Positions 7,075 through 47,241 of a stretch of DNA of 64,000 nucleotides are shown one piece after another. Source of the DNA: Deltaproteobacteria bacterium (GTDB lineage: Bacteria; Desulfobacterota; Desulfobulbia; Desulfobulbales; JAGXFP01); contig JAGVGT010000094.1 in the NCBI GenBank assembly GCA_020056965.1, positions 1 to 64,000 on the forward strand, given 5' to 3'. Position numbers and translations under genes: made by a program. Under the pieces are notes generated by a model. It searched no databases. It was not told the DNA's origin and saw only the letters and a list, made by a program, of their open reading frames with translations. The number at the start of each line of letters is the position of its first letter. The first letter of the stretch is position 1.

Positions 7075-7076
7075 TC

Positions 7077-21078: not shown

Positions 21079-21104
21079 TTCTTCCTCTGTATTTTTCCCA
21101 CTGA

Positions 21105-21130: not shown

Positions 21131-21173
21131 TTGCCGTTTCCCTCCCTGAATATGCGCTGGCGGCAGGTAAAAC

Positions 21174-21217
21174 CTTAACCGAAGATTAACCCAAACCTAA
21201 TCAGGCTGGGGTATTAA
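21174..21217 (+). promoter_or_regulatory. Putative Pho-box promoter 3, before the SlyD-like lipoprotein and TPS genes
   Basis: The clearest of the seven sites: CTTAACC (21174-80), ATTAACC (21185-91) and CCTAATC (21196-202), each separated by 4 nt. A 9-nt gap and the -10 candidate TATTAA (21212-17) follow. CTTAACC-type heptamers at 11-bp period are what is known for Pho boxes bound by SphR/PhoB-family regulators in some bacteria. The gene starts about 60 nt downstream of the expected transcription start. Confidence 0.6.
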
Positions 21218-21286
21218 TCAGTTCCTTGGCAGCAGCCATTGCCTTCCCGACCGGCACCAAACCCAGACATTCGGAGTCACAAACTC

Positions 21287-22180: not shown

Positions 22181-22287
22181 GGACCGGATGAGCTGTTTCC
22201 GAGGCCATTGTCGCAACCGCCCCGTTTGATTCCTGTGATTAGAGCTTCAAGTTTATTTTTGAAATTTCAGAGAGGTAATTGCTGGCC

Positions 22288-23903
22288 ATGCTGACGACCC
22301 CACGATTTCTCCGTTCGGGCAGTTTCACCTCTTTCGTGGTCCTGCTCCTGGCCCTACTGCTGACCCGGACCTTATGTCTTGGTGCCCAAGAGGTTCCAGA
22401 GCCGGGTGTGCAACGTATTGAATCCTACCAGGTTACCGGTAATACCATCATGGGCGAGGCCGAGATTGGGCAGGTTCTTCAGCCTTTCATCGGCCTGGAG
22501 TTGAACCAGGATAATCTTGAAAAGGCCCGAAAAACGCTTGAGCAAACCTACCGCACCAAGGGATATCCTGGGATCCAGGTGAATTCCCCGGAGCAGACCG
22601 GCGAAGGCGGGTTGATCCGGTTGGAGGCTGTGGAAAGCACCATCCGCCGCGTTCGGGTTACCGGCAATCAGTACTTCACCATGGAAAGTATTAAAAACGA
22701 TCTCCCTTCGCTCGCCCTGGGCAATCAGCTCTTTGTCCCCCAGTTGCAGATAGAACTCAATCGTATTAACCGTAACCGCAACCTGAAGGTCGCCCCGGTC
22801 CTGCTACCCGGCAAGGAGCCCGGCACCATCGACGTGGAACTGAAGGTCAAGGATCGTCTGCCACTTCACGGGTCGCTCGAACTAAACAACCGATCCAGTC
22901 ACGATACCAGCAATCTCAGATTCAACGGCAGCGCCCGCTACGAAAATCTTTGGCAGATGAACCATTCTTTTCCCTGCAGTATCAGACTTCTCCTGAGGAA
23001 CTTCAAGAGACCCAAGTTGTGGCTGCTTCCTATATCTTCCCATCTCTCTGGCGTGCCGATGATCTGAGCGTTTTGTACGCGGTGTTCTCGGACAGCCAGA
23101 ATTCCTTCGGTGAAGGCTTCCAGGTCTTGGGCAAAGGTAACATTTACGGCTTCCGCCAGGTTCTGCAATTGCCGGCGCAGGAGAAATACAGTCATACCCT
23201 CACCGTCGGTATGGACTACAAGGATTTCGATGAGACCGTCGGTTTTGCCAATGGCAACGCCGCCGTAAAAACCCCGATCAGCTATATGCCGTTTTCCGTC
23301 TCCTATGCCGCCTCATTGCCGGACGCCACCGGCTTTACCCAGTTTTCCGGAGGTGTGAGCATGATTTTTCGGGGAATGGTCACGGAGAGGCGGGAATTCG
23401 AGGACAAGCGCTATCGCGCCCGGGGCAATTATCTCATTGGTACCCTGGGGCTGGAGCGGCGCCAGAAGCTGCCCGCCGACTTCGGTTTCTACTGTAAAAT
23501 CGACGGTCAGCTGGCCGATCAACCCCTTATCGCCAATGAACAATACAGCGCCGGCGGCATGACCAGTGTCCGCGGCTACAAGGAAAGCGAGGAAGTCGGG
23601 GACAACGCGGTCCATACCATGATGGAATTGCTCTTTCCAGAACTCGCCAGCCACTTCAATTTCACCGGAGTGATCAAACGCATGGCGCCGTTTATTTTTT
23701 ACGATCAGGCCTATCTGGCCATCCGTAATCCCCTGCCTGGCACCCCGTCATTCTTCAAACTGAACGGCGCCGGGGTCGGGTTGCGTTGCCGTTTTGCCGG
23801 GGATTTTGCCCTCGAAGCCGATTGGGGGGTGGCCTTGTCGGCCACCGAAAAAACTGACAGCGGTACCCAGAGGGGTCAGTTTCTCCTCAAGTATGAATTT
23901 TGA
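22288..23903 (+). pseudogene. TpsB/FhaC/HecB-type outer-membrane transporter, reading frame broken at a T4 run
   Basis: Two overlapping frames together make one Omp85-family two-partner secretion pore. The first part (about 22288-22970) has a signal peptide, a POTRA domain (Y-Q-V-T-G-N-T-I-M-G-E-A-E-I, then V-R-V-T-G-N-Q-Y-F) and E-L-N-N-R-S-S. The second part (about 22970-23903) has the barrel strands with S-L-Q-Y-Q-T-S-P-E-E and the C-terminal G-Q-F-L-L-K-Y-E-F. One extra base at the TTTT run 22968-22971 would restore N-H-S-F-S-L-Q-Y-Q and one frame of about 538 residues. The cause may be an assembly error, a true mutation or frameshifting. AGAGAGG at 22269-22275 could serve a TTG at 22279 or the ATG at 22288. 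TpsB would export the TpsA protein encoded next. Confidence 0.85.
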
Positions 23904-24030: not shown

Positions 24031-27000
24031 ATGAGAATAGCCATGATTAATAAAATCTTCAAACGCACGCTGGCCCTTGGCCTGATCGTGAATCTCGTGG
24101 TCTCGCCGGCATACGCCGCCGATGGCGCCGCGATCTTCTTCGGTTCCGCCCTCAATAACATTCTGCCCAGACCGGCAGCGACAGCCCTGCCCACCGGTTT
24201 TAACCCCGTGCAGGGGTTCCTGGACGAACTGACCGTCAAAAGCGGCGATACTGTCGCCGAGATGACCGTGCACCAGACGGAAGACAAGGCCATTGGCGAA
24301 TGGCAAACCTTCGACATCGGCGAAAAGGCCTGGGTGCACTTCGACCAGCAGGGCCATACCGACTGGCAGGCGCTGAACCGTATTTACGATCAGAACCCCA
24401 GCCAGATTTTCGGACGGCTCACAGCCGATGGCGGGGTCTACCTGATCAATCAGAACGGCATCCTTTTCGGCAGTACTTCCTCGGTCAATGTCCACAAACT
24501 GGCCGCCTCGGCCTTGAATCTAACCGACGAGAACTTCCGGTCCGGCAATATGGTTTTTGACGGCACGATAAATTACGATGCCCTTAATCAGCCGGATTGG
24601 CAGGCCGGTCAAGGTTTTGTCGTCAATCAGGGAACCATCAATGTCGAGTTGACCAAGGACATAAACGGTCAGCAAACCGCCGTCAGGGACGGCTCGGTGA
24701 TCATGCTCGCCCCGTACGTGGAGAACAGCGGCGCCATCAATGCCCCTTTCGGGCAGATCGTCATGGCCGCCGGCAACGGGGTGGTAATGGCTGCCGACAA
24801 CAGTGCCGAATACCGAAACGAAAGTATGGTTGAGACCATCGTCGCTCCCGGACTCAGTTCGAACGCCGTGGGCGGTCTTCTCGAAGCCCATAACGGTCGG
24901 GTCAGCCTTTACGGTGGCCAAGTGGAACAAGACGGCGCCATCGTTGCCGCTACCTCGGTTTATCATCGCGGCCGCATCGAATTGCTGGCCACCGATTCGG
25001 TCAGGACCGGAGTCGAGAGCGTAACCGCCACTCCCGTCTCGGAAAATAGCGAAAAAACCGGGGCGGATTTTGTCCACCGGCCGGGGGAAATTTACATTGG
25101 CGGCTTTGGCTCCGGAACCATCCCACCGGCCACGGTGGAGCTCAATGGCCTAATCCTGGCTAATTCCGGGGATGTGCAAGTCTTTGCCCGGGAGCGGATT
25201 TTTATGGGCGAGGGCGCCCTTATCGACGTCAGCGGCATCTGGGCCGACCAGGACCCGGCCGACCAGTGGCACACCATCCAACTTAACTCCGCCCAGTTGA
25301 AAAACGACCCCTTGCTGAAGGGCGACAACAGCCTGCTGTATCGCTCGGAAATCACCGTCAACGAATATGACGGCAGTAACATTGGCGACTTGGGCGAAGC
25401 CTATCAAGCGTCCATGCTGACCAGCCTGGAGAAAGCGGTCAAGGGGGGCAGCATCAGCCTGCAAGCTGCGGATGGCGATATCCTGGTTAGCCAGAACGTT
25501 GTTTTCGATATCTCCGGCGGGGGGCTGAAAAATGCGGATAGTGTAGGTATCGGCACCAGGCTGGTATTCAACGACCAGGTTTACAGCCTGGCCGATGCTC
25601 CCGCTTACCTGCCTTACGAAGCCTTTGCCGATTATTATCAGAAGGATTATGCCCGCTTTGGTCTCAGCGAGACTTACCGGGGCCTCTATACCGGTGGGGC
25701 CAACCCCCTCTATGATCACATCCCCAGCCATATCGAAGGGGCCGACGCCGGGAGTCTGAAACTGATCAGTAGTAACTTTGTTTTCGATGGCAGCATCATC
25801 GCTAACCTGGTCATCGGTCCATACCAGTATTACGACGCCAGCCTCTTCGACGAAAACGGCCTCATCGAGATCGACGGCAAGCAGTTCTCCGACCGCTATC
25901 GCCGACCGCAAGGAGGCACCCTTCAGCTCGGCGGCCCGGCATCAAGCAGCGATGTTTCGATCAGTGAAAAAGGCAACGTACTCGGGGAGGTGATCATCGC
26001 CGGCAAGGAAGAAATTCTGGCGACGGACCAAGCCACTCTGCCGGAGGGCTTCAACCCCAGCCAGGAGCGGTCACTTGCACTGCCCAGCTATCTTGCGGCC
26101 GAGACCATCAACGCTTCGGGGATCGACCGGCTGATCATTAATTCGAATACCCTGGTCATTACTAAGCCGGGCACGGAATTGCGATTGCCCACCGGTGGAG
26201 AAGTGGCGATAGCCGCCCGCCGGATCGAGCATTACGGCGAGATTGTTGCCCCGGCCGGGACCGTGGCGATGACCATCGAGTCCAATTGGACCGAAGTGCC
26301 GTCGCATGAATCGTATCAAGAGCTGGAACAAAGGATCTATCTGGCCGACGGCAGCAGGATAGACACCTCGGGAGAGCGTCAGGACAATGCGGCGGTCGTC
26401 GAGAATGGCCAGAGTCCCGTTCCGGGTGTCCAGAAGGCGGGCGGGTCGGTCCTGCTGCACGACAACACTACGGATAATTTTGAAAATATTTACGACCTGC
26501 CCCAGGGGGACGGCGTAATTGTTGCGACCGGGGCGGAGCTTGACGTCGGCGGTGGGTATGAAATTACCGAGAAGGGTGCCATGCGGGCCGGGAACGCCGG
26601 CGAGATCGTCATCTCCGGCAGCAATGTGGTCCTGGATGGCATTCTTAAAGGGTATGCGGTCGAAGGCGGTAACGGCGGCAGCATCAAGATCTTCGCTAAC
26701 AATATTAATATTGTCGAACCGGGTCCGGCCCCGGTCGGCATTGGGGCCGACGACCCTCTGCCCGTGCTTGATTTTGGCCACGACCCCGCCAGTGATCCCG
26801 AAAACCAGTTCGGCAAAGGCCTGATCGTCGCCGGCGACCGTTTTGTTGACACCGGCTTCAGCCGGATCGGCCTGAACAGCGTCTTCGGCCTGCAGGTCAT
26901 GCCCGGGGTGAAAATTGACGTTTCGACGGTCAAGGAAAGCGCTTCGGCGCTGCTGGTTCCGAATCATACCGACCGTCAATACCTCGAAAAGCCGGAATAC

Positions 27001-30000
27001 CTGGCCGGCGCCAGTTCGCTTGCCCTTGCCGCTGGCAAAAAGCTCGATCAGCAGACAAATCTCGTTTATGGCAACGTCTATGGCGGCGACTATAACATTG
27101 CCAGGTTGACGATGGGCGAGGGCAGCGGGATCAAGGTGTTGCCGGGCGGTAGTGTCAGTCTGAAGGGCAAGGATGTATATCTGGCCGGCGAGGTCAACGC
27201 ACCCGGCGGCCAGATCACGGTTCAGGCGGATAGCGGCAATCTGCTCATCGCCGGAACCGCCAAGCTGCTGGCGCCTGGTTACGTCTCGCCTTTGGCCATC
27301 GACGCAAAGGCTGGTCTGCCGATGGTCGAGAAGGTCATGGACGGCGGGACCATCTCCCTGCGCAACGAAAGTGCCAACGGGAACCTGGAGATTGCGGCGG
27401 GCGCGGAACTGAACGTTGACGGAACCAGGGAAGTTTTGATCGGTTACCTCAATAACCAGGGGAGTTATCAGGGGGTCTCCGGAGCCGGGCGGGCCGGCTC
27501 GATCACTTTGGTCACCAGTGGCGAGTTGACCCAGAATGGCAGCCTCTCCGCCCGGGCCAATTTCCCCGGCGTGGTGAACGGCAGCCTGCGGGTGGAGATC
27601 AACAACCCCACCGAGGGTTTTGCCCTCAGTACCCCAGGTCTTTTGGCAATTTTCCGCGATAACGATTTCTACCAGTGGGAGTTTGCCAGCAGCCGGCAGA
27701 TCGTTTTTGATGAGAACCTGGAGTTGGCGCATGCCGGGAAAATCGTTTTCGATACCCCGCTGTTGCTTGACCGCAACGGCGCCCAGGTCACCATCGCCGC
27801 CGACTGGCTCCGCCTGCAAAACACCTACTTTCCCACGGCCCGGGTCTTGGAGACGGGCACGGGCAGTATCCAGCTTACCGGCGGTTATCTGGAAGTAGCC
27901 GGATCCGTGGGAGTAAGCGGGGCCGAGAGCATCGGCCTGAACTCCAGGAAGGATCTGAGTTTCGCCGATTATTTTTATCAATCCTCCGGGAACAGCGGCA
28001 GTAGTTTTTACCAGGGCGATTTCATTACCGCCGGTGATCTGACCCTGCAGGCAGACCGGATATTCCCAACTGCATTCAGCGAGGTCAACATCCAGGCGGC
28101 CGACCGGTTGACCATCCTGCCCGGTAACCCGGCCGCCGACGGGATTATTTATTCAGCTGCCGGCCGCCTGACACTTCAGGCCAATCGCATAGACCATCAG
28201 GGATACCTGGCTGCCCCGCTCGGCACGATCAACCTGATCGGCACGGGCAGCCAGAGCCGGATCATGCTTAGTCCCGGCAGTGTAACCTCGGTCGCCGGGC
28301 TGGATGGCATCGTCGAATTCGGCGCTCTCAACGACACCGGCGAATTCTGGACTTATCTGCCCAAGGAATACGCCGGAACCGAAAAGTACGCCAATGTTGA
28401 AGGTGCCCCGGAAAAGAACCTGGTTCTGGAGGGTGACGAGGTCATCGTCAGGGAAGGCGCCAAAGTTGATCTGTCCGGTGGTGGAGCAATTTTTGCCTAT
28501 CGCTACCTGTCCGGGCTCGAAGGAACCGTTAATCCCCTGGTCAAGACCGGTCAGTATGTCCTGGTGCCGAAGCTCGAACTGCCGGGAACTGTGGTTCATT
28601 TGGCCGGCAACAGTCTGGTGGCAGCTGGAACCTATTCTGTCCTGCCCCTGGATAGCGGCAATGCCGATAATGCCAAATATGCCTTCTTGCCAGGCGCTTT
28701 GATCATCTCGGACCAGGGGGCGCTGAGCGGGGCGTTGCCGGGCACGACCTCCGAAGGCTACGCGATGGTGCAAGGTTCTTTGGGGGTCCGCGGCTTGGCG
28801 ACCGACCCTGGGATGCCCCGTGGCTTCTCGGTGCGGACGGCGGACGAGGTGATGAAGGATGGCTTTTTCCAGACCAAGAAATTCGTGGGCGGCGACGGCG
28901 GCTCCTTTGAACTGGTCGGCAAGCAGAGCACGGTTACCTCCATCCTGGAAGGGGCGGTTGACGCCCACGCCCTCGAAGGTTTTCGGGGTGGAACCTTCAC
29001 GGCGGCGGCCAAGCTGGTGGAAATCGGCGCCGAAGCCTCCGGGTTGCCGGCTGACTTCACCATCGATTATGAACTGCCGCTTGATCTGCAGGGCAAACTC
29101 AACATCAAGGATACCACCCTCACCGGCAATGGCTTCTCCAAGGTTGTCGTCGGCGACACCGACATAACCCGCAGCATTATCGTCAAGGAAGGCAGTCAGG
29201 TCATTTCCGAAAATGTCTATCTAAACGTCGGCAGCGGCGACCTGAACGGGGTCACGGTGGCTGGAACCATCACGGTCGAGGTGGGGGCCGAAATTCATGC
29301 CGTCCAACCTGATGCCGGGGGTAGCGGCAACTCGGAGATCGTCTTTACGGCCGATGCCCACAACCTGGATGCCACCACCATCACCCTTAAGGATGGCAGT
29401 CTGGCACATGCCGCCGATCACCTTACCTTTGACACTGACAACCTGGTGCTGGAAGGTGCCGACCGGTTGCACATCGACCATGGTGGGCTAACCCTGAAAA
29501 GCCGCCGGATCGTCTTCGGTGACGCGGGGGCGCTCCCCGCCGACAACCTCGGGGGGCTTTTTCTCGATAGCGCCCAATGGGACCAGTTCGCCACCATCGA
29601 AGAGATCAGCCTGGACAGCGCCACCGACATCCTCTTTGCCGGGGATTTCAACCTGACCAGTCCGGCTCGATTGTTGTTCGATGCCCAGAGAATTGGCGGC
29701 TATCAGGAAGGCGGGGGCGCCGAAGTGAGCGTTTCCGCGCCCTGGATTACCCTGATAAACAGCAAACCAACGTATGTCGAGAGTGAGAATCGTCCCTGGT
29801 TGGCCAGTGTTGTTGACTTGGGAGCGCCGGCCGGCAGTGTTCTGGTTGGCAGGGCCGATAACGGCATAACTTTAGGTTCTGGTGATCTGCTCCTGCAAGG
29901 GTTTGCCGATGTCCGCCTCGCGACCGGAGGGGATATCGCCTTGACCGGTCAGGCCTTCCAGGGCAAAGACCTCAGAGAGGCCGCCATCTACAGTTCCTCG

Positions 30001-33000
30001 GCCTTGCGAACCGCCGGCAACCTCGATCTGAGCGCGGCCCGGCTCATCCTTGACCCATTGCAGGATGGAAATTACAAAGCGACCGACTATCTACTGGCGG
30101 TCGGCGAGGTGCTGAATATCAGTTCGGGCCCCGGGGCAACGACCGGAGGAGCAGTGGCTCGGGGGGGCAGGCTTCGGATCGAGGCCGATACCATCAATCA
30201 GAACGGGATCATCGATACCGTCTCCGGCACCATCGATATGAACGGAGTAAACGTCAACATCGATGGGTCGATCCGCGCCGTGGGCTCCGACTTCTCTCCG
30301 GCCGGCAGCATTACCATTACCGCCGCTGAGCGTTTAACCATCGGGACGATCGGCAGCCTTGACGTCTCGGCCGGGAGCCAGGGTGATGCCGGCAGCCTCG
30401 TCTTGCTGGCTCCGGCCGCCGACCTGGTCCTGGCCGGGCGATTATTGGCTTCAGCCCCAGAGGGCGGGCGGGGCGGATCCCTTCAACTGGATGCCAAGAA
30501 CCTTTCCGGCCTTGGCGGGGGCCTGAATTTCGACACCCTCAACACCCTTCTCGCGGCCGGCGGCTTTACGGACACCATCGATGTCCGCAGTCGAACCGGT
30601 AACCTCACCATCGGCGCTGACCAAACGGTGACGGCTCGGACGATAAAGCTGGCTGCTGACGATCAGGCGAATGGCAACATCGAGGTCTACGGGGTCATCG
30701 AGTCCAGCGGCGCCGATGGCGGGAGCGTGGAGCTGGATGGTTACAACAACGTTACCCTGCATGACAGCTCGCGGATCAGGGCGAGCGCGCTGTCAACCCA
30801 GGGCGATGGCGGCCAGGTCTATCTTTCCTCCCGGCAGGGTTTTGTCAATCTGAACAGCGGGGCGGGAATCGATGTCTCGGCCGGTTCTGCGGCCTCCGCC
30901 GACAAGAGTGGCACCGTCAAATTCCGGGCCAAGCGCAACGCCACCAATAACGGCGCCAACCTGGATCTGCGGGGTACAATTACCGGCGCCGGCCAGGTTG
31001 AGGCCGAGGCCTTCAAGGCGTACACCTTCACCAGCATCGGCGCCACTCAGCTCACCCAGATGAAGAACGAAGCCACCAGCTACCTCAATGCCCCGGCCAC
31101 CATTTTCAACAATCTCCAGCTTGCCGATCCCGCCACGACGAGGCTCGAAAACCGGGCGGGAGTGGAAGTTGTCAGCAGCACCAATCTCTCTCTTGATACC
31201 GCCTGGACCCTGGCCAACTGGCTTGGTACAGGCTATACCCCGGCGAATGTGACCTTGCGGGCCGCCGGCAATCTCGACATCAAGAATAATCTCATCGACA
31301 AACGGACTACCTCGGGTACTCCCGTATCCCTTAATTACCTGGATCCCGTCAACAAGCCTTCCGCCGATCTTACCCTGGTGGCCGGGGCGGATCTTACTGC
31401 CGCCGACCTCCTGGCCGTGAACCGGAATCTAGCCCAATCCACCACCGGGAAACTGACCATTTCAGACAACAAGAAGGTCTATACGGAAAGCGGTGATATC
31501 CGTTTCGCCTCGGCTGCCGATACCACCATCGGTCTTGCTCCCGGCGCTCAACTGGCCAACGATCCCACCCCTTGGCTGGAAGCAAAACTCAGCTCCACTC
31601 TGTCAAGCTATCGGGGCAATATTCTGGGTCGAGTCGGCGGCAGTTTGACCACCAAGGGGGTCGTGCAAACTGCCTCGGGAGATATCGACATCGCGGTCGG
31701 CAATAATCTTTATCTGTACAACCCGATCGGCGCTTCACAAGCGCTGATCGGCGCCATCCGGACCACCGGCCTGCCGCAACCGCTTACCGCCGTGCAGGGC
31801 AAGGAAGATGTCCGGAGATTTTTTGATTACGCCCAGGGCGGGGACATCCGGATCAGCAGCGCCAACGACATCCTAGGTGGCGAGACCTCCATCGGCGTCA
31901 ACTGGGACAAATGGTGGGCAACCGAGAATAGATGGAGCGCAGCCTACCCCTCCGGATCCGGCGACCCTGCCACTCTGGGCATCGCCACCATGGGCGGCGG
32001 CGACCTTAACGTGGCGGCCCGGGGAGATATCAACCTCCAGATCGGCGCCTTTGGTCGCGGCGACCTGCGGGTGACCGGCGGTTCCGACCTCAACGGCCGT
32101 TACCTGGTAAGCGATGGCGTTGCTGATATCTATGCCCAGGGCAGTTTCGGTACGCTTAACGATGCCCAGCATCTTGAACTTATGAAGGGCTCCATAAACC
32201 TCACCGTCGAAGGCAACCTGACCCTCGGCACGATTTTAAATCCCTCCTATGTTCTGGGGGAGAAAAACAAGTCTGCCTCCAGACTCATGGGCTATACCAG
32301 CGAGAGCACTGTGAATCTGGCGGCTTTGGTCGGTGACGTGTCGATTTCCGGTAAGGCCTTTCCCATGGAAAGTTCAACCGCCCTCAACGACATTCGCAAT
32401 GCCCTGACCGCTCTGCCGCCTTCCCTGGACATTCAGTCGGGACGCGATCTTGTTTTCACCACCAAGGCTGGCACCAATCTGCAATTGGCGCCCTCGCCAA
32501 CGGGCAATCTCGCCCTGACTGCCGGTCGAGACATTTACGGAACTACTCTGGACAGCAACGGCAACCCGATTACCACCAGGATCAAAATGCGCCAGGATGA
32601 CCCGGCTGGGTATTACGGTCTCCAGTCGGGCGGTCTCCAGGATCTCATGCCCCTGGAGCCGCTGCACCAGGACGATACCGCGCCGGTTTTGGTCCAGGCC
32701 GGCGGCGAAATCCGCAACCTCAGGCTGGAGTTGCCGAAAAAATCAGAGATCGTTGTGGCCGGGGATATCCTGGACCTTGAACTGCAAGTGCAGAACATCA
32801 ACAGCTCCGACATCAGCAAGGTGACGGCGGGCGGCGATATAGTCATGGGCTCTTATGAGCGAACGGATAATTCCGGCACCGGTTTTCGCTTTGCCGGCCC
32901 CGGAGCGGCAGTGGTCATGGCCGCCGGCAATATCAATCTCGGCACTACCGCCGGTATCCGCACCATTGCCAATGGCATGGAGGGCGTGACCGGTAGTATC

Positions 33001-34032
33001 TGGGCCACCGGGGTCCATCCCTATCTTTCCTCCGAAGGAGCCGATTTATATGTCCTTGCCGGTTTTGCCGACGCAACTACCCCCGCAAGGATTGATGGCT
33101 TTTTCGACTCATTGCGCGGCCAAGGGGTTGAATTCTCGCAGTTGATGGCCATGGGTAAGGTGACCGAGGCCAGGGCTTTGGAGGCGACGGCCAGGGCAGA
33201 GCTCATCGCGGCCCTCCTTGGCGATGCCAATCCCCAAGTCATCCCGGGCGTCGGTAACATCAGCATGACCCAGTCTTCGATTGCCACGGCATACGGCGGC
33301 AACGTCAACATCCTCGCCCGCGGACGCATGGATGTCGGAGGTACGTCCTTCTCTCAGCGGAACAGCAGCAGCGGCATCCGGACGGAAGCCGGCGGGGGGA
33401 TCAATATCTACGGGGTCGGCGACGTCAATGTCAACGAGTCCCGGGTGATGACCTGGATGGGTGGTGATGTCACGGTCTGGTGCGATGGAGACATCAATGC
33501 CGGCCGCGGCTCGAAAACCGCGGTGAATGCCAGCGGGGCTGCGGTTGCCCGGGTAAACGAGAGCGGGGTTTTCGAACTGCAGAAAAAGCCTGCGGTCGGC
33601 GGCTCCGGGGTCAGGGCGGTGACCTATGACCCCGACGGACCAAGTGGCCAGCGGCAACAACCGGAGCCGGGCAATATCTACCTTTTCGCGCCGAACGGCA
33701 CCATTGATGCCGGCGAAGCAGGCATTGCCGGCAACCAGATTTTCCTGGCCGCCAATAAGGTGCTTAATGCCCAGAACATCACTTTTTCCCAGTCTAGTAT
33801 CGGGGTTCCGGTTGCCACCGACGTCTCCGTGAACCTGGGCGCGATCAGCGGGGCCGGGACGATGGCCGCGGCGACCAATGAAGTGAGCAGGACATCCTCG
33901 GGTCTCGATTCAGTTCGAGAGCAGGAACCGGTCTTGGCGACGCAAGACTTGGCCGAGACCCTGGTCGCCAAGTTGCTTAAGGTTGAAGTAATTGATTTGC
34001 TAGATGATTTTACAAACAGAAACAAGGAGTAG
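24031..34032 (+). CDS. Giant filamentous haemagglutinin-type TpsA exoprotein (3333 residues)
   Basis: 3333 residues without interruption, the longest gene in the window. A signal peptide (about residues 1-32, ending A-Y-A-A-D-G) is followed by the TPS secretion domain with W-V-H-F-D-Q-Q-G, the N-Q-N-G-I-L-F-G motif (usual N-P-N-G-I) and A-A-S-A-L-N-L. The remainder is a long array of short beta-helical turns rich in G, A, D, N and I, with recurrent G-G-x-I-x-L and A-G-x-x patterns. No cysteine-rich or toxin-like C-terminus is evident; it ends K-E-V-I-D-L-L-D-D-F-T-N-R-N-K-E or close to it. It should be secreted by the TpsB encoded just upstream and form a surface fibre. The start may be 24031 or 24043; neither has a clear ribosome-binding site. 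It is co-directional with the ExbB/ExbD/TonB genes. Confidence 0.9.
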   Translation: MRIAMINKIFKRTLALGLIVNLVVSPAYAADGAAIFFGSALNNILPRPAATALPTGFNPVQGFLDELTVKSGDTVAEMTVHQTEDKAIGEWQTFDIGEKAWVHFDQQGHTDWQALNRIYDQNPSQIFGRLTADGGVYLINQNGILFGSTSSVNVHKLAASALNLTDENFRSGNMVFDGTINYDALNQPDWQAGQGFVVNQGTINVELTKDINGQQTAVRDGSVIMLAPYVENSGAINAPFGQIVMAAGNGVVMAADNSAEYRNESMVETIVAPGLSSNAVGGLLEAHNGRVSLYGGQVEQDGAIVAATSVYHRGRIELLATDSVRTGVESVTATPVSENSEKTGADFVHRPGEIYIGGFGSGTIPPATVELNGLILANSGDVQVFARERIFMGEGALIDVSGIWADQDPADQWHTIQLNSAQLKNDPLLKGDNSLLYRSEITVNEYDGSNIGDLGEAYQASMLTSLEKAVKGGSISLQAADGDILVSQNVVFDISGGGLKNADSVGIGTRLVFNDQVYSLADAPAYLPYEAFADYYQKDYARFGLSETYRGLYTGGANPLYDHIPSHIEGADAGSLKLISSNFVFDGSIIANLVIGPYQYYDASLFDENGLIEIDGKQFSDRYRRPQGGTLQLGGPASSSDVSISEKGNVLGEVIIAGKEEILATDQATLPEGFNPSQERSLALPSYLAAETINASGIDRLIINSNTLVITKPGTELRLPTGGEVAIAARRIEHYGEIVAPAGTVAMTIESNWTEVPSHESYQELEQRIYLADGSRIDTSGERQDNAAVVENGQSPVPGVQKAGGSVLLHDNTTDNFENIYDLPQGDGVIVATGAELDVGGGYEITEKGAMRAGNAGEIVISGSNVVLDGILKGYAVEGGNGGSIKIFANNINIVEPGPAPVGIGADDPLPVLDFGHDPASDPENQFGKGLIVAGDRFVDTGFSRIGLNSVFGLQVMPGVKIDVSTVKESASALLVPNHTDRQYLEKPEYLAGASSLALAAGKKLDQQTNLVYGNVYGGDYNIARLTMGEGSGIKVLPGGSVSLKGKDVYLAGEVNAPGGQITVQADSGNLLIAGTAKLLAPGYVSPLAIDAKAGLPMVEKVMDGGTISLRNESANGNLEIAAGAELNVDGTREVLIGYLNNQGSYQGVSGAGRAGSITLVTSGELTQNGSLSARANFPGVVNGSLRVEINNPTEGFALSTPGLLAIFRDNDFYQWEFASSRQIVFDENLELAHAGKIVFDTPLLLDRNGAQVTIAADWLRLQNTYFPTARVLETGTGSIQLTGGYLEVAGSVGVSGAESIGLNSRKDLSFADYFYQSSGNSGSSFYQGDFITAGDLTLQADRIFPTAFSEVNIQAADRLTILPGNPAADGIIYSAAGRLTLQANRIDHQGYLAAPLGTINLIGTGSQSRIMLSPGSVTSVAGLDGIVEFGALNDTGEFWTYLPKEYAGTEKYANVEGAPEKNLVLEGDEVIVREGAKVDLSGGGAIFAYRYLSGLEGTVNPLVKTGQYVLVPKLELPGTVVHLAGNSLVAAGTYSVLPLDSGNADNAKYAFLPGALIISDQGALSGALPGTTSEGYAMVQGSLGVRGLATDPGMPRGFSVRTADEVMKDGFFQTKKFVGGDGGSFELVGKQSTVTSILEGAVDAHALEGFRGGTFTAAAKLVEIGAEASGLPADFTIDYELPLDLQGKLNIKDTTLTGNGFSKVVVGDTDITRSIIVKEGSQVISENVYLNVGSGDLNGVTVAGTITVEVGAEIHAVQPDAGGSGNSEIVFTADAHNLDATTITLKDGSLAHAADHLTFDTDNLVLEGADRLHIDHGGLTLKSRRIVFGDAGALPADNLGGLFLDSAQWDQFATIEEISLDSATDILFAGDFNLTSPARLLFDAQRIGGYQEGGGAEVSVSAPWITLINSKPTYVESENRPWLASVVDLGAPAGSVLVGRADNGITLGSGDLLLQGFADVRLATGGDIALTGQAFQGKDLREAAIYSSSALRTAGNLDLSAARLILDPLQDGNYKATDYLLAVGEVLNISSGPGATTGGAVARGGRLRIEADTINQNGIIDTVSGTIDMNGVNVNIDGSIRAVGSDFSPAGSITITAAERLTIGTIGSLDVSAGSQGDAGSLVLLAPAADLVLAGRLLASAPEGGRGGSLQLDAKNLSGLGGGLNFDTLNTLLAAGGFTDTIDVRSRTGNLTIGADQTVTARTIKLAADDQANGNIEVYGVIESSGADGGSVELDGYNNVTLHDSSRIRASALSTQGDGGQVYLSSRQGFVNLNSGAGIDVSAGSAASADKSGTVKFRAKRNATNNGANLDLRGTITGAGQVEAEAFKAYTFTSIGATQLTQMKNEATSYLNAPATIFNNLQLADPATTRLENRAGVEVVSSTNLSLDTAWTLANWLGTGYTPANVTLRAAGNLDIKNNLIDKRTTSGTPVSLNYLDPVNKPSADLTLVAGADLTAADLLAVNRNLAQSTTGKLTISDNKKVYTESGDIRFASAADTTIGLAPGAQLANDPTPWLEAKLSSTLSSYRGNILGRVGGSLTTKGVVQTASGDIDIAVGNNLYLYNPIGASQALIGAIRTTGLPQPLTAVQGKEDVRRFFDYAQGGDIRISSANDILGGETSIGVNWDKWWATENRWSAAYPSGSGDPATLGIATMGGGDLNVAARGDINLQIGAFGRGDLRVTGGSDLNGRYLVSDGVADIYAQGSFGTLNDAQHLELMKGSINLTVEGNLTLGTILNPSYVLGEKNKSASRLMGYTSESTVNLAALVGDVSISGKAFPMESSTALNDIRNALTALPPSLDIQSGRDLVFTTKAGTNLQLAPSPTGNLALTAGRDIYGTTLDSNGNPITTRIKMRQDDPAGYYGLQSGGLQDLMPLEPLHQDDTAPVLVQAGGEIRNLRLELPKKSEIVVAGDILDLELQVQNINSSDISKVTAGGDIVMGSYERTDNSGTGFRFAGPGAAVVMAAGNINLGTTAGIRTIANGMEGVTGSIWATGVHPYLSSEGADLYVLAGFADATTPARIDGFFDSLRGQGVEFSQLMAMGKVTEARALEATARAELIAALLGDANPQVIPGVGNISMTQSSIATAYGGNVNILARGRMDVGGTSFSQRNSSSGIRTEAGGGINIYGVGDVNVNESRVMTWMGGDVTVWCDGDINAGRGSKTAVNASGAAVARVNESGVFELQKKPAVGGSGVRAVTYDPDGPSGQRQQPEPGNIYLFAPNGTIDAGEAGIAGNQIFLAANKVLNAQNITFSQSSIGVPVATDVSVNLGAISGAGTMAAATNEVSRTSSGLDSVREQEPVLATQDLAETLVAKLLKVEVIDLLDDFTNRNKE

Positions 34033-34039
34033 TGGTGCC

Positions 34040-35815
34040 ATGAAATCAATCGGTAAATACGCGTTTGCAACCCTTTGCTTGTTAATGACCCTGGCCTCCG
34101 CCGGTCAGGCTTTTGCCTGGTGGAATCCGGACTGGCAGCACCGGGTTAAAATCAATTTTGACACCTCACCAGCCGGGGCCAATCTTGCGGGCCTGCTGCA
34201 GGAAGTACCGATGCTCATCCGGCTGCATACCGGCAACTTCGATTTTACCAAGGCCAAGGAGGATGGTGCTGACCTCCGTTTTGTCGGCGCCGACGACAAA
34301 GAGCAGTTGAAGCATCACTTCGAGAGCTACGACCCCTCTGCGGAAATGGCCCTGGTCTGGGTGAAGGTTCCCGGGCTTGACGCCAAGGGTCCGAGCAGCA
34401 TTTTTCTTTATTACGGCAACGATAAGGCCGTGCAGTCTGAAAATATCGGCGGCACCTATGACGTTGGCCAGACCGCTGTCTTTCACTTCAATGAAACCAA
34501 AGGAATGCCCGTCGATAGTACGGCTTACCAAAACAACGCCTTGCAGTTCCAAGGCGGACAGGGACTGCCGGCCCAGATCGGTCGCGGCCTCAATCTGGCC
34601 GGGGCTCAGGACCGGCTGGTTTTGCCGGGGAAAGCCTTTAAGCTCGACAACGGTTTTACCTTTTCTACCTGGCTCCGGCTCGCGCGCTCCCAAGCGAACG
34701 CGCCGCTCCTGACCTGTATCAAAGAGGGCAAGGGACTGCGAGTCACTTTGGCGGGAGCTACGGTTCAGGCCAGCCTTACCAGCGGCGGGAAAAACTACCA
34801 AACCGCCTTTGCCGGCAACCTGACCATGGATACGTGGCATCACCTGGCGGTTGCCGGGGCCAGCGGCGGTGACCTCACGGTTTATGTGGACGGTAATGCG
34901 GTGGCCAGCGTCAAATTGCCGCAGGGGCTACCGGACCTGGGCGCTGAGCCGGTCATCGGCGGGGGGGAAACGGGCGGCGCCTTTGTCGGTGACCTCGACG
35001 AGGTGGAGCTCTCCAACCTCACCCGCACCCCGGACTGGATCATGGCCACGGCCAGAAGCCAGGCGCCGGGCGCCGCCGTGGTCACCGCCGCACCGGTGGA
35101 GGAGAATACCGAGGGAGGCGGAGAGGGCAGCGCCTATTTTTCGACCATTGCCAAGAACATTACCGTCGACGGCTGGGTCGTCATGGCATTTATGGCCGTC
35201 CTTTCGGCCGCGACCTGGATTATCATGATCGGAAAAAGTTACTTCTATTACCATCTCAACCGGGAAAACCGGCATTTTCAGCAGGTATTCAACCGATTAA
35301 CTGAACATCAATCTCTGGAGGGCCGGGACCAGGAATTCGTGAACTCCCCTCTGTATGTCATCTATCAGGACGGATATCGGATGATGCATGAAGACCACCC
35401 CAAGAACCCGTCAGTGGAGCTGTCAAGGGCATCAGCAACCGGCCAGGAGAAGACCTTCCTGTTCATCATTGATAAGTGCTACCTGAATGAGGTCAAGAAA
35501 CTCAACAGCTGGTTGTTCATCCTCACCCTGGCTGTTTCCGGCGGCCCCTTCCTGGGATTGCTCGGCACCGTCTGGGGGGTAATGAACACCTTTGCCGCCA
35601 TGGCCCAGGCGGGCGAGGCGAGTCTGCTGGCCATCGCGCCCGGCATCGCCTCGGCCCTAGCATGCACGATTATGGGGCTGCTGGTGGCCCTTCCTGCCCT
35701 GTTTGGTCACAACTATCTGACCGGCGTAGTCCGGGGGTTGACCCAGGACATGAATGTCTTTTTGGAAGAGTATGCCCTCAAGGTTGATAAATTCTACTGG
35801 AGTGACGTGAAATGA
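34040..35815 (+). CDS. DUF2341-LamG-MotA/TolQ/ExbB fusion protein
   Basis: 591 residues from the ATG at 34040 (AAGGAG at 34023-34028 inside the end of tpsA). A signal peptide is followed by a DUF2341 domain (W-W-N-P-D-W-Q-H-R-V, L-Y-Y-G-N near residue 135), then a LamG/concanavalin-like lectin domain (about 160-340, F-T-F-S-T-W-L-R and W-H-H-L-A-V). A transmembrane helix follows, then a MotA/TolQ/ExbB channel core: G-P-F-L-G-L-L-G-T-V-W-G-V with A-P-G-I-A-S-A-L and T-I-M-G-L-L-V-A-L-P-A. The channel half is the proton-conducting part of Ton/Tol energisers, and the N-terminal part should be periplasmic. It overlaps exbD by 4 nt. This combination puts a sugar- or protein-binding module directly on the motor. 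Confidence 0.9.
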   Translation: MKSIGKYAFATLCLLMTLASAGQAFAWWNPDWQHRVKINFDTSPAGANLAGLLQEVPMLIRLHTGNFDFTKAKEDGADLRFVGADDKEQLKHHFESYDPSAEMALVWVKVPGLDAKGPSSIFLYYGNDKAVQSENIGGTYDVGQTAVFHFNETKGMPVDSTAYQNNALQFQGGQGLPAQIGRGLNLAGAQDRLVLPGKAFKLDNGFTFSTWLRLARSQANAPLLTCIKEGKGLRVTLAGATVQASLTSGGKNYQTAFAGNLTMDTWHHLAVAGASGGDLTVYVDGNAVASVKLPQGLPDLGAEPVIGGGETGGAFVGDLDEVELSNLTRTPDWIMATARSQAPGAAVVTAAPVEENTEGGGEGSAYFSTIAKNITVDGWVVMAFMAVLSAATWIIMIGKSYFYYHLNRENRHFQQVFNRLTEHQSLEGRDQEFVNSPLYVIYQDGYRMMHEDHPKNPSVELSRASATGQEKTFLFIIDKCYLNEVKKLNSWLFILTLAVSGGPFLGLLGTVWGVMNTFAAMAQAGEASLLAIAPGIASALACTIMGLLVALPALFGHNYLTGVVRGLTQDMNVFLEEYALKVDKFYWSDVK

Positions 35816-36222
35816 AAAAGGATCTCTATCATCACGAAACCTTCGACGATATCAATGTCACTCCCCTGCTGGATCTGGCCTGGTGTCTGCTGGTTGTATT
35901 TATTCTCGCCATTACCGCCGCAGTGCAGGGGATCAAGGTCAACCTGCCCAAGGCCAGCGCCAGTCCTGTCGTCCTGCAAAAGCCGAAGACCAAATCGATC
36001 ACGCTGCATTCCAACGGGCAGATTTATCTGGATGCCTATCCCGTCAGCATGACCGAACTGGAGTCGATGCTCCGCAGTTACCGGGCCGCCGACCCCGATC
36101 TGCCGGTAATCATCAAGGGAGATGACCAGATTTACTATCGCAAGGTCATTGAAATTCTCGATCTGTTGCAAAGACTCGAGATCACCCAGCTCGGCCTAGT
36201 CACTCAGAAGGTCGTCAAGTAA
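35812..36222 (+). CDS. exbD: ExbD/TolR biopolymer transport protein
   Basis: 136 residues, start overlapping the preceding stop (ATGA at 35812). One N-terminal transmembrane helix contains the essential aspartate in T-P-L-L-D-L-A-W-C-L-L-V-V-F. The periplasmic domain carries G-I-K-V-N-L-P-K-A and D-x-x-I-Y-Y-x-x-V-I-E-I-L-D, as in ExbD/TolR. It forms the energy-transducing complex with the channel protein before it and the TonB-like protein after it. Confidence 0.92.
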   Translation: MKKDLYHHETFDDINVTPLLDLAWCLLVVFILAITAAVQGIKVNLPKASASPVVLQKPKTKSITLHSNGQIYLDAYPVSMTELESMLRSYRAADPDLPVIIKGDDQIYYRKVIEILDLLQRLEITQLGLVTQKVVK

Positions 36223-36312
36223 CGTTATTAACGAATTGCACATCAAGGGCCGGAAGTTATTCCAAAGCTGGGCAGTGCCCCGCTTCACTATTCAACAGCG
36301 ATAACAAAATAA

Positions 36313-37010
36313 ATGTCAAAGCGGAAAAATTCCATTTACGTGATCTTCGGCGGAGTGGTTCTGGTGTTGTTACTCGGGGTCGGTCTGGTTATCAGTCTGC
36401 TGATGAGTGACGATACCGGTTCCAAAACGAGACGCATCAATGCGATCACCATGTTGAAGTCCACTCCGCCGCCCCCCCCCCTCCGCCCAAGATCGAGGAT
36501 AAACCGCTTCCGCAGCCGGAAAAGACGACGGAAATCGTTGCTGACCAGAATCCCACGGAGGCCCGTGAGGATCAGCCAAACAATGACGATGCTCAGCCGC
36601 AGGGCGACACGCTTGGCCTTGACGCTGACGGCACGGCGGGTGGTGATTCCTTCGGCCTGGCGGCCCGTAAGGGTGGGCAGTCTATCCTTCTCGGCGGAGG
36701 TGGGGGTGGCAAGGCTTCGGCGATGAGCAAATACGCCTGGTATACACGGCGGGTCAAAGACGAAATGGAAAAAATCGTCAGAAAATACCTGGAGAAAAAG
36801 GGTGGTATCCCCAAGGGGCAATTTGAGGCAATTATCGCCGTGCAACTTGATGATCGTGGAGTGGTTACTAAATATTCGATCATCGAGCCCTCCGGAAATC
36901 CTGATTTTGACGCAGCGCTGAAAGAAACCCTGAGTGCAGCCGTCATGCAAGATCCGCCGCCGCCGGAGATGCCTCGGGTCATCAAATTGAAAATCCTTTC
37001 CCAGGGTTAA
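36313..37010 (+). pseudogene. tonB: TonB-family protein with frame change in a 10-C homopolymer
   Basis: The first frame (36313 to about 36480) gives an N-terminal transmembrane anchor (V-I-F-G-G-V-V-L-V-L-L-L-G-V) and the start of a proline segment. At a run of ten C (36472-36481) the frame is lost. Adding one C, or removing two, restores K-I-E-D-K-P-L-P-Q-P-E-K and runs on to the TonB/TolA-like C-terminal domain ending at 37010. That domain contains G-Q-F-E-A-I-I-A-V-Q-L-D-D and G-N-P-D-F-D-A-A-L. The restored protein is about 232 residues. The tract could be a sequencing error or a slippage-prone on/off switch. The protein should link the ExbB/ExbD motor to an outer-membrane partner. Confidence 0.82.
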
Positions 37011-37038
37011 GTTAAACCAATAAGTGAGAATAACGACC

Positions 37039-38505
37039 ATGATGAAACTAAGCAGGAGATGGGCCGGTTGCGCCCTGTTAGCGACAATGATTGCCCACGG
37101 GCCTGGCCTGGCCAGCGCAGCGGAGGTGGGCAGCGTCGAGAGGCTTGTGGAGATGCTGTCGGCCAAGGGAATTATCACAGCCGCCGAAGCCGATGATTTC
37201 AAAAAACAATACGGTACTCCGACCGTAAATGAAGCGGCTGGCGGCCTGAAGGATGCCCAAGTGGACGGCCTGGTCATTGACGGTATTCTTGACAAACTGA
37301 AGGAAATCGATCGAACCAAGACCAAGCACTGGACCAATCGCCTCATTTTCAGCGGCGACATGCGTCTCCGCTACCAGGCTGATTATTTTGATAAAGGCAA
37401 TCACCAGGGATTCGTCGACCCGAACGACCTTTCCGCCACCATTCCGCAGGAAACCAGGCATCGAGGCCGGTTCCGGGTAAGGCTGGCGGCCGAGGGCAAG
37501 GTGAACGACCAGTTTACCTCGATGGTAAAAATTTCGACCGGCAATGAAACCGACCCGGTTTCGACCAACGACACCCTTGGTGATTATCAGAATAAGGACA
37601 GCGTGGTCTTCGACCAAGCTTACATCCGCTGGATGCCGGATTACTTTCCGCTTTCCGTCTGGGGTGGCCGGATTCAGAACCCCTGGTTAAGCACTGACCT
37701 GGTCTGGGACACCGACTTGAACTTCGAGGGAGTCGCGGGCACATACTCTCCGCAAATCACTCAGAATCTGGACGGCTTCCTGACCCTGGGAGCTTTCCAG
37801 ATCGATGAATTTGCTCGGACCCAGAAGGATAAATATCTTCTGGGGGCGCAACTGGGATTGGCGTCCAAGCTTGGCAACGGTCTCCTCGGCAAGATCGCCG
37901 CGGCCTATTACGACTACAAGAACGTCACGGGCGAGGGGGTTGCCGCCAACTGCCAGTCCCAGACCTGCGAGTCGGAACCGCAGTTCATGCAGAAAGGCAA
38001 TACCCTGTTCTATCTCGACCCCGCCAATACCACCGTCGGGCTGGCGGCCAATTTCAAAGAGCTTAATATCACTGGAGAATTGGATGTTTCGGTTTTCAAT
38101 CCGGTCCACGTCATACTCACCGGCGATTATGTGAAGAATATCGGCTACGACTCGGAAGATGTGGCTCGGCGGGTTTATGGGAGTACGGTAAACAGTGCGG
38201 CCAGCGACAAGCAGGACCAGGGGTATCAGTTCGGTCTGAGCGTGGGATATCCGCAGGTCCGCGACTCCGGGCAGTGGAAAACCTACCTGTTTTATAAACA
38301 TCTCGAAGCGGACGCGGTACTCGATGCCTTCACTGATTCCGACTTTCATCTAGGAGGCACACACTGCAAGGGCTGGATCCTGGGCGGCGAATTGGGCCTG
38401 GGCAAAAACACCTGGCTGACCGGGCGCTGGCTGACTTCCGATGCGATAAGCGGTCCCCAGTTCAGTGTCGATACGCTCCAGATCGATTTGAATGTGAAAT
38501 ATTGA
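37039..38505 (+). CDS. Putative outer-membrane porin
   Basis: About 488 residues from the ATG at 37039 (a GTG at 37024 is in frame). A signal peptide (ending A-S-A-A) is followed by a short coiled-coil-like segment (L-V-E-M-L-S-A-K-G-I-I-T-A-A-E-A-D-D), the usual N-terminus of 'putative porin' family proteins. Amphipathic strands follow: F-S-G-D-M-R-L-R-Y-Q, R-G-R-F-R-V-R-L, V-F-D-Q-A-Y-I-R-W and the terminal L-Q-I-D-L-N-V-K-Y with aromatic end. It is the outer-membrane barrel of this operon; with TonB and ExbBD nearby it could be a gated uptake channel. The substrate is not determined by sequence; phosphate is a possibility given the PstS-like gene and putative Pho boxes. Confidence 0.82.
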   Translation: MMKLSRRWAGCALLATMIAHGPGLASAAEVGSVERLVEMLSAKGIITAAEADDFKKQYGTPTVNEAAGGLKDAQVDGLVIDGILDKLKEIDRTKTKHWTNRLIFSGDMRLRYQADYFDKGNHQGFVDPNDLSATIPQETRHRGRFRVRLAAEGKVNDQFTSMVKISTGNETDPVSTNDTLGDYQNKDSVVFDQAYIRWMPDYFPLSVWGGRIQNPWLSTDLVWDTDLNFEGVAGTYSPQITQNLDGFLTLGAFQIDEFARTQKDKYLLGAQLGLASKLGNGLLGKIAAAYYDYKNVTGEGVAANCQSQTCESEPQFMQKGNTLFYLDPANTTVGLAANFKELNITGELDVSVFNPVHVILTGDYVKNIGYDSEDVARRVYGSTVNSAASDKQDQGYQFGLSVGYPQVRDSGQWKTYLFYKHLEADAVLDAFTDSDFHLGGTHCKGWILGGELGLGKNTWLTGRWLTSDAISGPQFSVDTLQIDLNVKY

Positions 38506-38515: not shown

Positions 38516-39214
38516 ATGAAAGGGGCGATGCCAAAAATATTAATTCTGCTTCTGCTGCTGACTCTTGGGGCCGCGGGGTGGGCTGGATACCGAATTCGCG
38601 TACTCAAGGTGGAAAATGCTGGCCTGCGAGAACAGAGCGTATCTTTGGAACGAAAGATGCGCCAGTCGGTGAGCAAACTGGATGAGCAGAGAGCCGTGGC
38701 TGATCGGAACGGTAGCGCCAAGGCCAACCTGGATGGCGAGTTGCGGGTTGCCGAAGCCAGAATCCATGAGTTGACCAATAAATTGGCGGCGGATAAGGCC
38801 CGTTTGCAGGCAGAGGCCGATAAGCTCAGGTCCTCGGGAGAAACTGCCGCGACCAGCCATCGCCAGGAAATGGAAAAGTCCAAGGATGCTGTGGCCCAAT
38901 GGTCTGCCAAATATGAAGAACTGCGCGCTGACAGCAGTACCAAGCTCCGGGAGCGCGATGAGAGGATTGCCTCCCTGACCGGTGAGAAACAGAAGCTTAA
39001 TGCCAAACTGGAAACCGAAAAACACGAACATGAGTACTGCCGGCAGGCCAATGGTCGTTTTGCTGATCTGAGCAAGGAACTGCTGGAAAAGTTCGAAAAA
39101 AAGGGCGTCTTTGATACCCTCAAAAGGAAGGAACTATTTACCCAACTGAGCAAGGTCGAATTGGAGAAGCTGATCCAGGACTTCAAAGACAAAATCGATA
39201 ATGGCACCCTTTAA
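38516..39214 (+). CDS. Membrane-anchored coiled-coil protein
   Basis: 232 residues, unrecognised family. A short N-terminal transmembrane helix (I-L-I-L-L-L-L-L-T-L-G-A-A-G-W) is followed by a continuous predicted coiled coil of about 150 residues rich in E, K, R, L and A. A C-terminal helical region follows (L-L-E-K-F-E-K-K-G-V-F-D-T-L). A GAGGAGG ribosome-binding site lies 10 nt after the porin stop. It probably spans the periplasm as a spacer or scaffold for the TonB/porin apparatus. The next gene starts 14 nt before its stop. Confidence 0.7.
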   Translation: MKGAMPKILILLLLLTLGAAGWAGYRIRVLKVENAGLREQSVSLERKMRQSVSKLDEQRAVADRNGSAKANLDGELRVAEARIHELTNKLAADKARLQAEADKLRSSGETAATSHRQEMEKSKDAVAQWSAKYEELRADSSTKLRERDERIASLTGEKQKLNAKLETEKHEHEYCRQANGRFADLSKELLEKFEKKGVFDTLKRKELFTQLSKVELEKLIQDFKDKIDNGTL

Positions 39215-41503: not shown

Positions 41504-42052
41504 ATGTCTTCACAAGAAAGAAAGACTGATTTGTACCTTTCCACCACCGATACCGCCAGCTTATTTAGAAACTTAGCGACCGCGATAGAAGGGGGTGACG
41601 AAAAACTTCTCAATGATCTCGGGATCAGCATCAAGGACAGCAAAAAGATCAAGCTGGAGATCAAGTGCGGGGAAGAGAAGCTTTCAGTAAAGGTCAAGGT
41701 CAAGAATAAAGCGGTCGAGGCTGAGGGCGGTGAAATGACGGAAGCTGGCGAAAATGTGCCCAAAAAACCCGGCTATAAACCACTGAAAAAGAGAATGTCG
41801 GGTACCTTCAAAAGCATCAAAAAAAGCTTGTTGGCCGCGACCCCTCCCAGCTCCGAAGACCTGAACCTCTTCCTGGAAGATGCGGCGGAAATGGTCACCT
41901 ATCCGGGATTCGGCAACAAATATTATCCGGCCTTTACCGAGGCCTGCCAATACTTTGAAAAGGCTGCCGCTGCAGGCAATCTGGAAGAGATGCTGATCGC
42001 CTTCAGTAAAATCGATGTCTGCCGATTGGCCTGTCACGACCGCTACAAATGA
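41504..42052 (+). CDS. GAK system XXXCH-domain protein
   Basis: 182 residues, AAGGAGAAG upstream. The C-terminal C-R-L-A-C-H-D-R-Y-K (Cys-x3-Cys-His) is the signature of XXXCH-domain proteins encoded in GAK loci. The motif recalls heme-binding CxxCH but with an extra residue, and there is no signal peptide, so covalent heme is unlikely. The N-terminal half has alternating charged and hydrophobic residues (K-L-E-I-K-C-G-E-E-K-L-S-V-K-V-K-V-K), as in amphi-Trp relatives. A helical domain with F-L-E-D-A-A-E-M-V follows. Function is unknown. It is the first gene of the cluster after the putative Pho box. Confidence 0.8.
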   Translation: MSSQERKTDLYLSTTDTASLFRNLATAIEGGDEKLLNDLGISIKDSKKIKLEIKCGEEKLSVKVKVKNKAVEAEGGEMTEAGENVPKKPGYKPLKKRMSGTFKSIKKSLLAATPPSSEDLNLFLEDAAEMVTYPGFGNKYYPAFTEACQYFEKAAAAGNLEEMLIAFSKIDVCRLACHDRYK

Positions 42053-42120
42053 ATGGCTCGTTGCGCAAACTAATCTATTAAAATCACCGGTCGGAGTTCT
42101 CGCCCAGCCTTGGAATTTAA

Positions 42121-43284: not shown

Positions 43285-43341
43285 AGATGATTGCGGCAGA
43301 AGAATTTAGAGAACAATAGACATCTATAAAGGAGACCTGTC

Positions 43342-43611
43342 ATGGCTGAACAGAAATTCATTTTTGAATCCATCCAGGATTCGGAAACCATTAAGTCCTA
43401 TCTGGAATCAATCATCACCGGCATTGCCAAGAAGAAAATCGTTCTGAGTACCGACGGCGAGGATATCACCCTGCATCCAAACGGTCTCCTGAAGCTGACC
43501 GTCAAGGCCCGTAAGAAGGCCGACAAGAACCGGATCAGCATCAAAATGGCCTGGACCGACGAACGCGCCAGATTGGGCGACCACAACAAGACCATCGAAA
43601 TTAACTCCTGA
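43342..43611 (+). CDS. Amphi-Trp domain protein (GAK system), first copy
   Basis: 89 residues with an AAGGAG ribosome-binding site. The C-terminal R-I-S-I-K-M-A-W-T-D-E is the amphi-Trp motif: an amphipathic strand ending in tryptophan, the small domain for which the GAK system is partly named. The N-terminal part is helical with Y-L-E-S-I-I-T-G-I, then V-L-S-T-D-G-E-D-I-T-L-H-P. A second, longer copy is at 48877. The domain has no known activity and may be a substrate or carrier acted on by the ATP-grasp and kinase encoded nearby. Confidence 0.85.
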   Translation: MAEQKFIFESIQDSETIKSYLESIITGIAKKKIVLSTDGEDITLHPNGLLKLTVKARKKADKNRISIKMAWTDERARLGDHNKTIEINS

Positions 43612-43624
43612 TCGCCATTTCCTC

Positions 43625-45271: not shown

Positions 45272-45283
45272 CGGGGAGTTATT

Positions 45284-47232: not shown

Positions 47233-47241
47233 GCGTAAGTT

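Follow-up and report, generated by a model that had tools for sequence, protein, structure and literature searches.

In Pseudomonas aeruginosa, pdtA, pdtB, exbB2, exbD2, tonB4 and a porin gene are co-regulated (PMC2729926, PMC7035377). The PUMA3/VreI cluster to which they belong is induced by phosphate starvation, and its exbB2-exbD2-tonB4 genes have been described as a putative TonB system that still awaits characterisation (PMC7035377). A 2009 study already noted that, in other Proteobacteria, two-partner secretion (TPS) genes cluster with ExbBD and PA0696 genes (PMC2729926). Two further precedents concern ExbB-like proteins provided with extra parts. Specifically, the long ExbB of Serratia marcescens possesses a periplasmic extension that binds HasB, a paralog of TonB, and plays a part in function (PMC9008036), and a study of generic ion transporters (mBio 2025) described DUF2341 appendages, of unknown function, on ExbB-like A subunits (PMC12505986). 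Our literature searches found no paper joining a DUF2341-ExbB protein with DUF3739-type TPS; the combination of DUF3739 with TPS gave nothing, and that of DUF2341 with TonB gave only the stator paper PMC12505986.

Here, we describe a locus in which these elements meet. In our reading, to which we assign a probability of about 55%, it encodes a proton motor of the Ton type reserved for one class of TPS, namely that of the DUF3739 TpsA exoproteins, with a proposed contact to the TpsA tail.

Gene Content of the Locus

The window, that is, the whole stretch of 64,000 nucleotides that was analysed, carries the cluster on its + strand. The first gene (22279..23903; POTRA_2 7.5e-12, ShlB 1.6e-10) encodes TpsB, an outer-membrane transporter of the ShlB/FhaC type, whose POTRA and ShlB/FhaC partner domains are found in the two halves of a gene split by a frameshift into two frames. 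It is followed by the gene for TpsA (24031..34032), a 3333-aa exoprotein of the filamentous-haemagglutinin type with an N-terminal TPS domain (24262-24975; PF05860, 2.3e-20) and a C-terminal DUF3739 (33460-33813; 5.7e-29). A TPS domain in a large exoprotein is as expected of two-partner secretion (type Vb). Downstream of TpsA lie the fusion gene discussed below (34040..35815) and the genes for an ExbD/TolR-like protein (35812..36222; Pfam ExbD, 5e-26), a TonB-like protein (36313..37010), a Porin_5 outer-membrane barrel (37024..38505; 4.4e-121) and a membrane-anchored coiled-coil-like protein (38516..39214). The last has no Pfam match; it occupies the position of PA0697, which in most loci is taken by a homologue. 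Hence the order proposed in the earlier note, with a giant adhesin before the fusion and ExbD, TonB and a porin after it, is borne out by Pfam, with the correction that tonB is frameshifted. By Pfam, the barrel encoded after tonB matches Porin_5 only, and no plug or TonB-dependent receptor domain was found in the locus.

The TonB-like proteins also share a glycine-rich motif peculiar to the family, LGLDAxGxxGxDxFGLxxRKGGRSLIGGG, which comes after the proline-rich part and before the C-terminal domain (about 36620-36720 in the window) and is kept in most relatives of this phylum. Upstream of the TPS genes, an exopolysaccharide and exosortase (EpsH) locus at 4963-17942 includes genes for a sugar transferase, a TPR protein, a Wzz-like protein and a ParA/AAA-type ATPase. 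Directly downstream of the cluster, an apparent GAK-system set (XXXCH protein, PhoU/phosphotransferase, ATP-grasp, HPr-kinase-like and CofD proteins) lies at 41504-48429. The genome contains dsrA, scoring above its cut-off; together with the single order to which the genomes listed in the class search belong, this points tentatively to a sulfur-metabolising, Desulfobulbales-like bacterium.

Architecture and Topology of the Fusion Protein

ORF and Pfam analysis divides the product of the fusion gene, one intact chain, into a signal peptide, a DUF2341 domain, a LamG domain and a three-helix channel of the ExbB/TolQ type, as the earlier note had supposed for the domains preceding the channel. The ORF runs without interruption from 34004 to 35815 (603 aa from its first position). 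The ATG at 34040, 8 bases past the TpsA stop, is the more likely start and gives a protein of 591 aa; at its other end, the gene overlaps exbD. The signal peptide, judged by eye, is MKSIGKYAFATLCLLMTLASAGQAFA. DUF2341 covers residues 87-174 (34262..34525; PF10102, 1.4e-17) and the LamG/concanavalin A-like domain residues 200-346 (34601..35041; Laminin_G_3, PF13385, 1.1e-18), the latter with profile matches to solved LamG-like folds. The channel, with its three membrane helices (35165..35812), belongs to the MotA_TolQ_ExbB family on the basis of the Pfam match (MotA_ExbB, residues 488-583, 6.7e-25) and of alignments to solved TolQ and ExbB structures; its match to the TolQ model (4e-37) is below that model's equivalog cut-off.

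The DUF2341-LamG part forms a folded, two-domain module of about 350 residues. Because it follows the signal peptide and precedes the first of the membrane helices, the module is predicted to be periplasmic and to surround the motor, with the outside of the cell out of its reach. A single-sequence AlphaFold model of the module was unusable (mean pLDDT 35).

Residues of the Motor

Glu176 is an important residue of E. coli ExbB. At the equivalent position, all 24 fusions carry Ser or Ala (Ser550 in the window, codon 35651..35653, located by alignments), whereas the 26 ordinary ExbB/TolQ proteins of related genomes all carry Glu. In addition, the histidine of the TonB membrane helix (H20) is absent from 21 of 22 TonB-like proteins, including that of the window. 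The third residue expected of a canonical Ton motor, the membrane aspartate of ExbD, is retained in the window (Asp21) and in every relative with a readable ExbD, within the motif LLDLAW/MLDLAY/LVDV. In E. coli, both the TonB H20A and the ExbD D25N variants are inactive (PMC11658791). By these residues, the fusion motors form a distinct subclass of Ton-type motor.

Distribution and Gene Order

A search of 258 genomes of the class with a profile built from 11 fusions retrieved full-length fusions from 11 of them; all genomes listed in that search belong to one order. The fusion is also present in 6 of 395 genomes of a sample of the phylum, five of them additional to the class set. Including the window, 24 homologous loci were collected from this phylum and from alpha-, beta- and gammaproteobacteria. 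Some are on named plasmids of Methylosinus, Methylomagnum, Burkholderia, Cupriavidus, Aquabacterium, Variovorax and Klebsiella, and the Burkholderia fusions are full-length. A search for related loci with a single fusion protein gave two DUF2341-type matches and no fusion. The earlier note had asked for this comparison, on the ground that a fusion missing from relatives or created by an assembly error would undo its proposal; with 24 homologous loci, an assembly artefact is ruled out as the origin of the fusion. The cluster is carried by Klebsiella plasmids (L046, L043), one of them typed as conjugative, and the Klebsiella fusion gene has no DNA match in the E. coli genomes searched.

In this phylum, the order TpsA-fusion-ExbD-TonB-Porin_5-coiled coil is constant save for contig ends and matches under threshold. 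Most of the named proteobacterial plasmids show TpsB-fusion-ExbD-TonB-porin-coiled coil, together with YbjN and a PpiC-type isomerase and often with genes for an STN receptor, an ECF sigma factor and a FecR regulator, the last three being present in the Methylosinus, Klebsiella, Burkholderia and Variovorax loci. Two exceptions are the Methylomagnum plasmid, where porin and TpsA are located elsewhere on the replicon, and Aquabacterium, where TpsB and TpsA lie upstream and two ExbD genes are present (in Aquabacterium olei, in tandem behind the fusion at L045:19724-20540). In the window, Pfam detects no STN, ECF sigma or FecR match in the ORFs of 18743-22177, and no VreA-VreI-VreR, YbjN or PpiC genes among the neighbouring genes scanned.

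Association of the Motor with One Type of TpsA

The genomes of the class that contain DUF3739 are the same 11 of 258 that contain the fusion (Fisher p 1.5e-19, uncorrected for kinship), and in the phylum sample DUF3739 and the fusion occur in the identical 6 of 395 genomes (p 2e-13, likewise uncorrected). TPS domains as such are more widespread, being found in 45 of the 258 genomes. Since 34 of these 45 have neither the fusion nor DUF3739, the motor goes with the DUF3739 type of TpsA and not with TPS generally. The identical genome sets and the near-invariant gene order thus sustain the idea, already advanced in the earlier note, of a dedicated Ton-type motor tied to the giant adhesin.

The DUF3739 TpsA proteins have, moreover, a conserved C-terminal end. 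In the window, this is the beta-strand-like motif VEVIDL (33982..33999), and the pattern [VIF]x[VILF]x[GSD][FYLIVW] matches 22 of 23 TpsA tails, whereas after shuffling it matches 1.7 tails on average and never more than 7; as the pattern was picked after inspecting the sequences, and the sequences are related, these counts are only a guide. The 23rd tail, from M. trichosporium, has VEVIGY, which was missed by the anchor used.

Among 15 plasmid records with this TpsA tail, 10 carry the fusion. Four of the five others were examined: neither TpsB nor motor is annotated beside TpsA, and no Porin_5 is found on the record. The partners of these orphan TpsA proteins may be located elsewhere in the respective genomes. 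The conserved C-terminal strand is present in the orphans as well. They were seen on Methylosinus, Cupriavidus and Variovorax plasmids (L093, L094, L095, L096), and most adjoin STN, ECF sigma and FecR genes. Possibly, they represent additional cargo for one motor and one transporter used in common.

The porin is linked to the motor almost as tightly as TpsA, and this linkage gives rise to the most serious alternative. That is, the motor might serve to open the Porin_5 barrel so that a substrate, probably a phosphorus source or polymer, is actively taken up, with TpsA as the surface capture protein, in the manner in which HxuA serves HxuC in Haemophilus, and with the porin in place of a TonB-dependent transporter. 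In most loci, tonB is followed by a full-length Porin_5 (which lies elsewhere on the Methylomagnum plasmid), and such a porin is found on all eight tested plasmids with the fusion and on none of four without it. The strong type of Porin_5 (full-length and high-scoring) occurs in the same 11 genomes plus one, G009, which has the strong porin, at the start of a contig, and the coiled coil, with no fusion match. The induction of the P. aeruginosa cluster by phosphate starvation (PMC7035377) also suits uptake. Nonetheless, the barrel shows no plug or TonB-receptor domain, and the orphan TpsA loci, which are without porin and motor alike, leave the two candidate clients unseparated; by the same token, the data do not single out Porin_5 as the sole linked client. 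The uptake through the porin envisaged in the earlier note consequently keeps the constant company of porin and motor in its favour and has the domain content of the barrel against it, and we consider it doubtful. We favour the TpsA/TpsB side as the probable target of the motor, given that the motor associates specifically with a single TpsA type and that the TpsA tail is conserved, while regarding the porin as a live rival.

Proposed Mechanism

By homology to ExbB/TolQ and ExbD, the inner-membrane channel of the proposed TpsA-dedicated motor would consist of five copies of the fusion around two ExbD helices (5:2). Proton flow through this channel, for which the kept ExbD aspartate and the homology argue, would drive a TonB-like rod spanning the periplasm. 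The five DUF2341-LamG modules would form a five-fold periplasmic collar around the rod and would most likely act as a docking or specificity module, tying the motor to its own TonB and to its secretion partners. The client would be the DUF3739 TpsA apparatus. The likeliest point of contact is the C-terminal end of TpsA, which would be exported last and whose conserved strand suits a strand pairing of the TonB type. This contact would be made while TpsA is held in TpsB, although TpsB or the porin might be contacted instead, and the resulting pull would serve to complete the giant surface filament, to retain it or to release it. In its full form, that is, as a powered TPS in which a motor of a distinct subclass grips the periplasmic C-terminal TpsA strand in the TpsB pore so as to pull it, hold it or release it, the collar providing partner specificity, the model is put forward tentatively.

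Among the points that count against TpsA as the client, TPS export is known to work without an energy source. Furthermore, insertions in the P. aeruginosa tpsA, tpsB, tonB homologue or PA0696 leave VreI-induced zebrafish killing unchanged (PMC2729926).

As for the collar, a docking or specificity role seems likelier than sensing of the outside, because the module is predicted to be periplasmic and, by analogy, because the Serratia ExbB extension binds HasB. The earlier note had proposed that the lectin-like module senses surface contact or external polysaccharide, which its position between signal peptide and first membrane helix makes unlikely. A variant compatible with a periplasmic location would have the module act as a lectin sensor of a periplasmic or wall glycan, be it peptidoglycan or nascent exopolysaccharide from the upstream exosortase/EPS locus, and gate the channel. 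The LamG-like fold detected by profile and the EPS/exosortase gene set at about 5-18 kb of the window speak for it; however, other loci are not consistently beside EPS genes, no ligand-binding residues were identified in the module and the cell surface is beyond its reach, so that we judge such a sensor improbable.

A further question is raised by the frameshifts, since, barring sequencing errors, those in tonB and tpsB would mean that the system may be off or decayed in this organism. The tonB gene is split at a tract of ten C (36472-36481) in its proline-rich part, the downstream frame requiring 8 or 11 C, and the TonB_2 match (2e-9) is confined to the downstream half (36723-37010). In tpsB, three-frame translation resolves the frames 22279-23067 and 22950-23903, a short T run near 22970 being the site of the 1-base shift; a relative, G013, has an intact TpsB/FhaC-like frame of 589 codons. 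Every tonB gene of a relative that is readable in full is intact, its longest C run being 4-8, and the fusion gene itself is free of such a defect. The tonB lesion could be a sequencing error, a phase-variable switch or a real loss. That the whole system is a decaying or switched-off remnant, as the two lesions and the intact tonB frames of relatives might suggest, is very improbable, given that TpsA, fusion, ExbD and porin are unbroken across 14 kb and that each lesion alters one base of a homopolymer, as sequencing errors typically do; the C10 run could instead be a phase-variable switch.

In the sampled genomes, this class of TPS, which occurs in at least two large groups of bacteria and apparently takes in P. 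aeruginosa PdtA, was never found without its own proton motor. TPS is commonly presented as having no need of an energy source, and the constant association with a motor suggests a powered system. Moreover, the long-uncharacterised exbB2-exbD2-tonB4 becomes testable with a named client, and the motors provide a subclass that naturally does without two residues to which importance for Ton function is usually ascribed.

Comparison with Known Systems

The locus shares with ExbB-ExbD-TonB and TolQ-TolR-TolA the common ExbB/TolQ fold, the ExbD membrane aspartate and the TonB_2 C-terminal domain. It differs from them in the Ser/Ala replacing Glu176, in the lost TonB histidine, in the periplasmic module of about 350 residues and in the lack of a TonB-dependent receptor in the locus. 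The long ExbB of Serratia likewise combines a signal peptide with a periplasmic N-terminal extension on ExbB; its extension, however, has about 50 residues, is rich in Ala and Pro and is likely unstructured, whereas the fusion carries a two-domain module. The ion transporters of PMC12505986 share the DUF2341 appendage, and the accessible part of that article draws no link to two-partner secretion or to DUF3739. HxuCBA of Haemophilus influenzae resembles the present system in coupling a TPS pair to a TonB-energised step. HxuC is, however, a TonB-dependent receptor, and by Pfam no such receptor stands beside the TPS pair of this locus, where a Porin_5 barrel and a dedicated motor are found instead.

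The closest likeness is to the PUMA3/VreI locus of P. aeruginosa (pdtA, pdtB, exbB2, exbD2, tonB4, PA0696 porin, PA0697, YbjN, PpiC), which has PUMA3-like relatives in Pseudomonas, Burkholderia, Rhodopseudomonas and Janthinobacterium. Around the motor, the window agrees with it in gene set and gene order, with adjacent genes for TpsA, TpsB, ExbB, ExbD, TonB, porin and a PA0697-like protein, as in loci of the PUMA3/Vre type, and it belongs to a different bacterial group, probably the Desulfobulbales. A DUF2341-LamG part of PA0693 goes unmentioned in the accessible text of PMC2729926 and PMC7035377; by analogy, the Burkholderia fusions suggest that PA0693 also carries this module.
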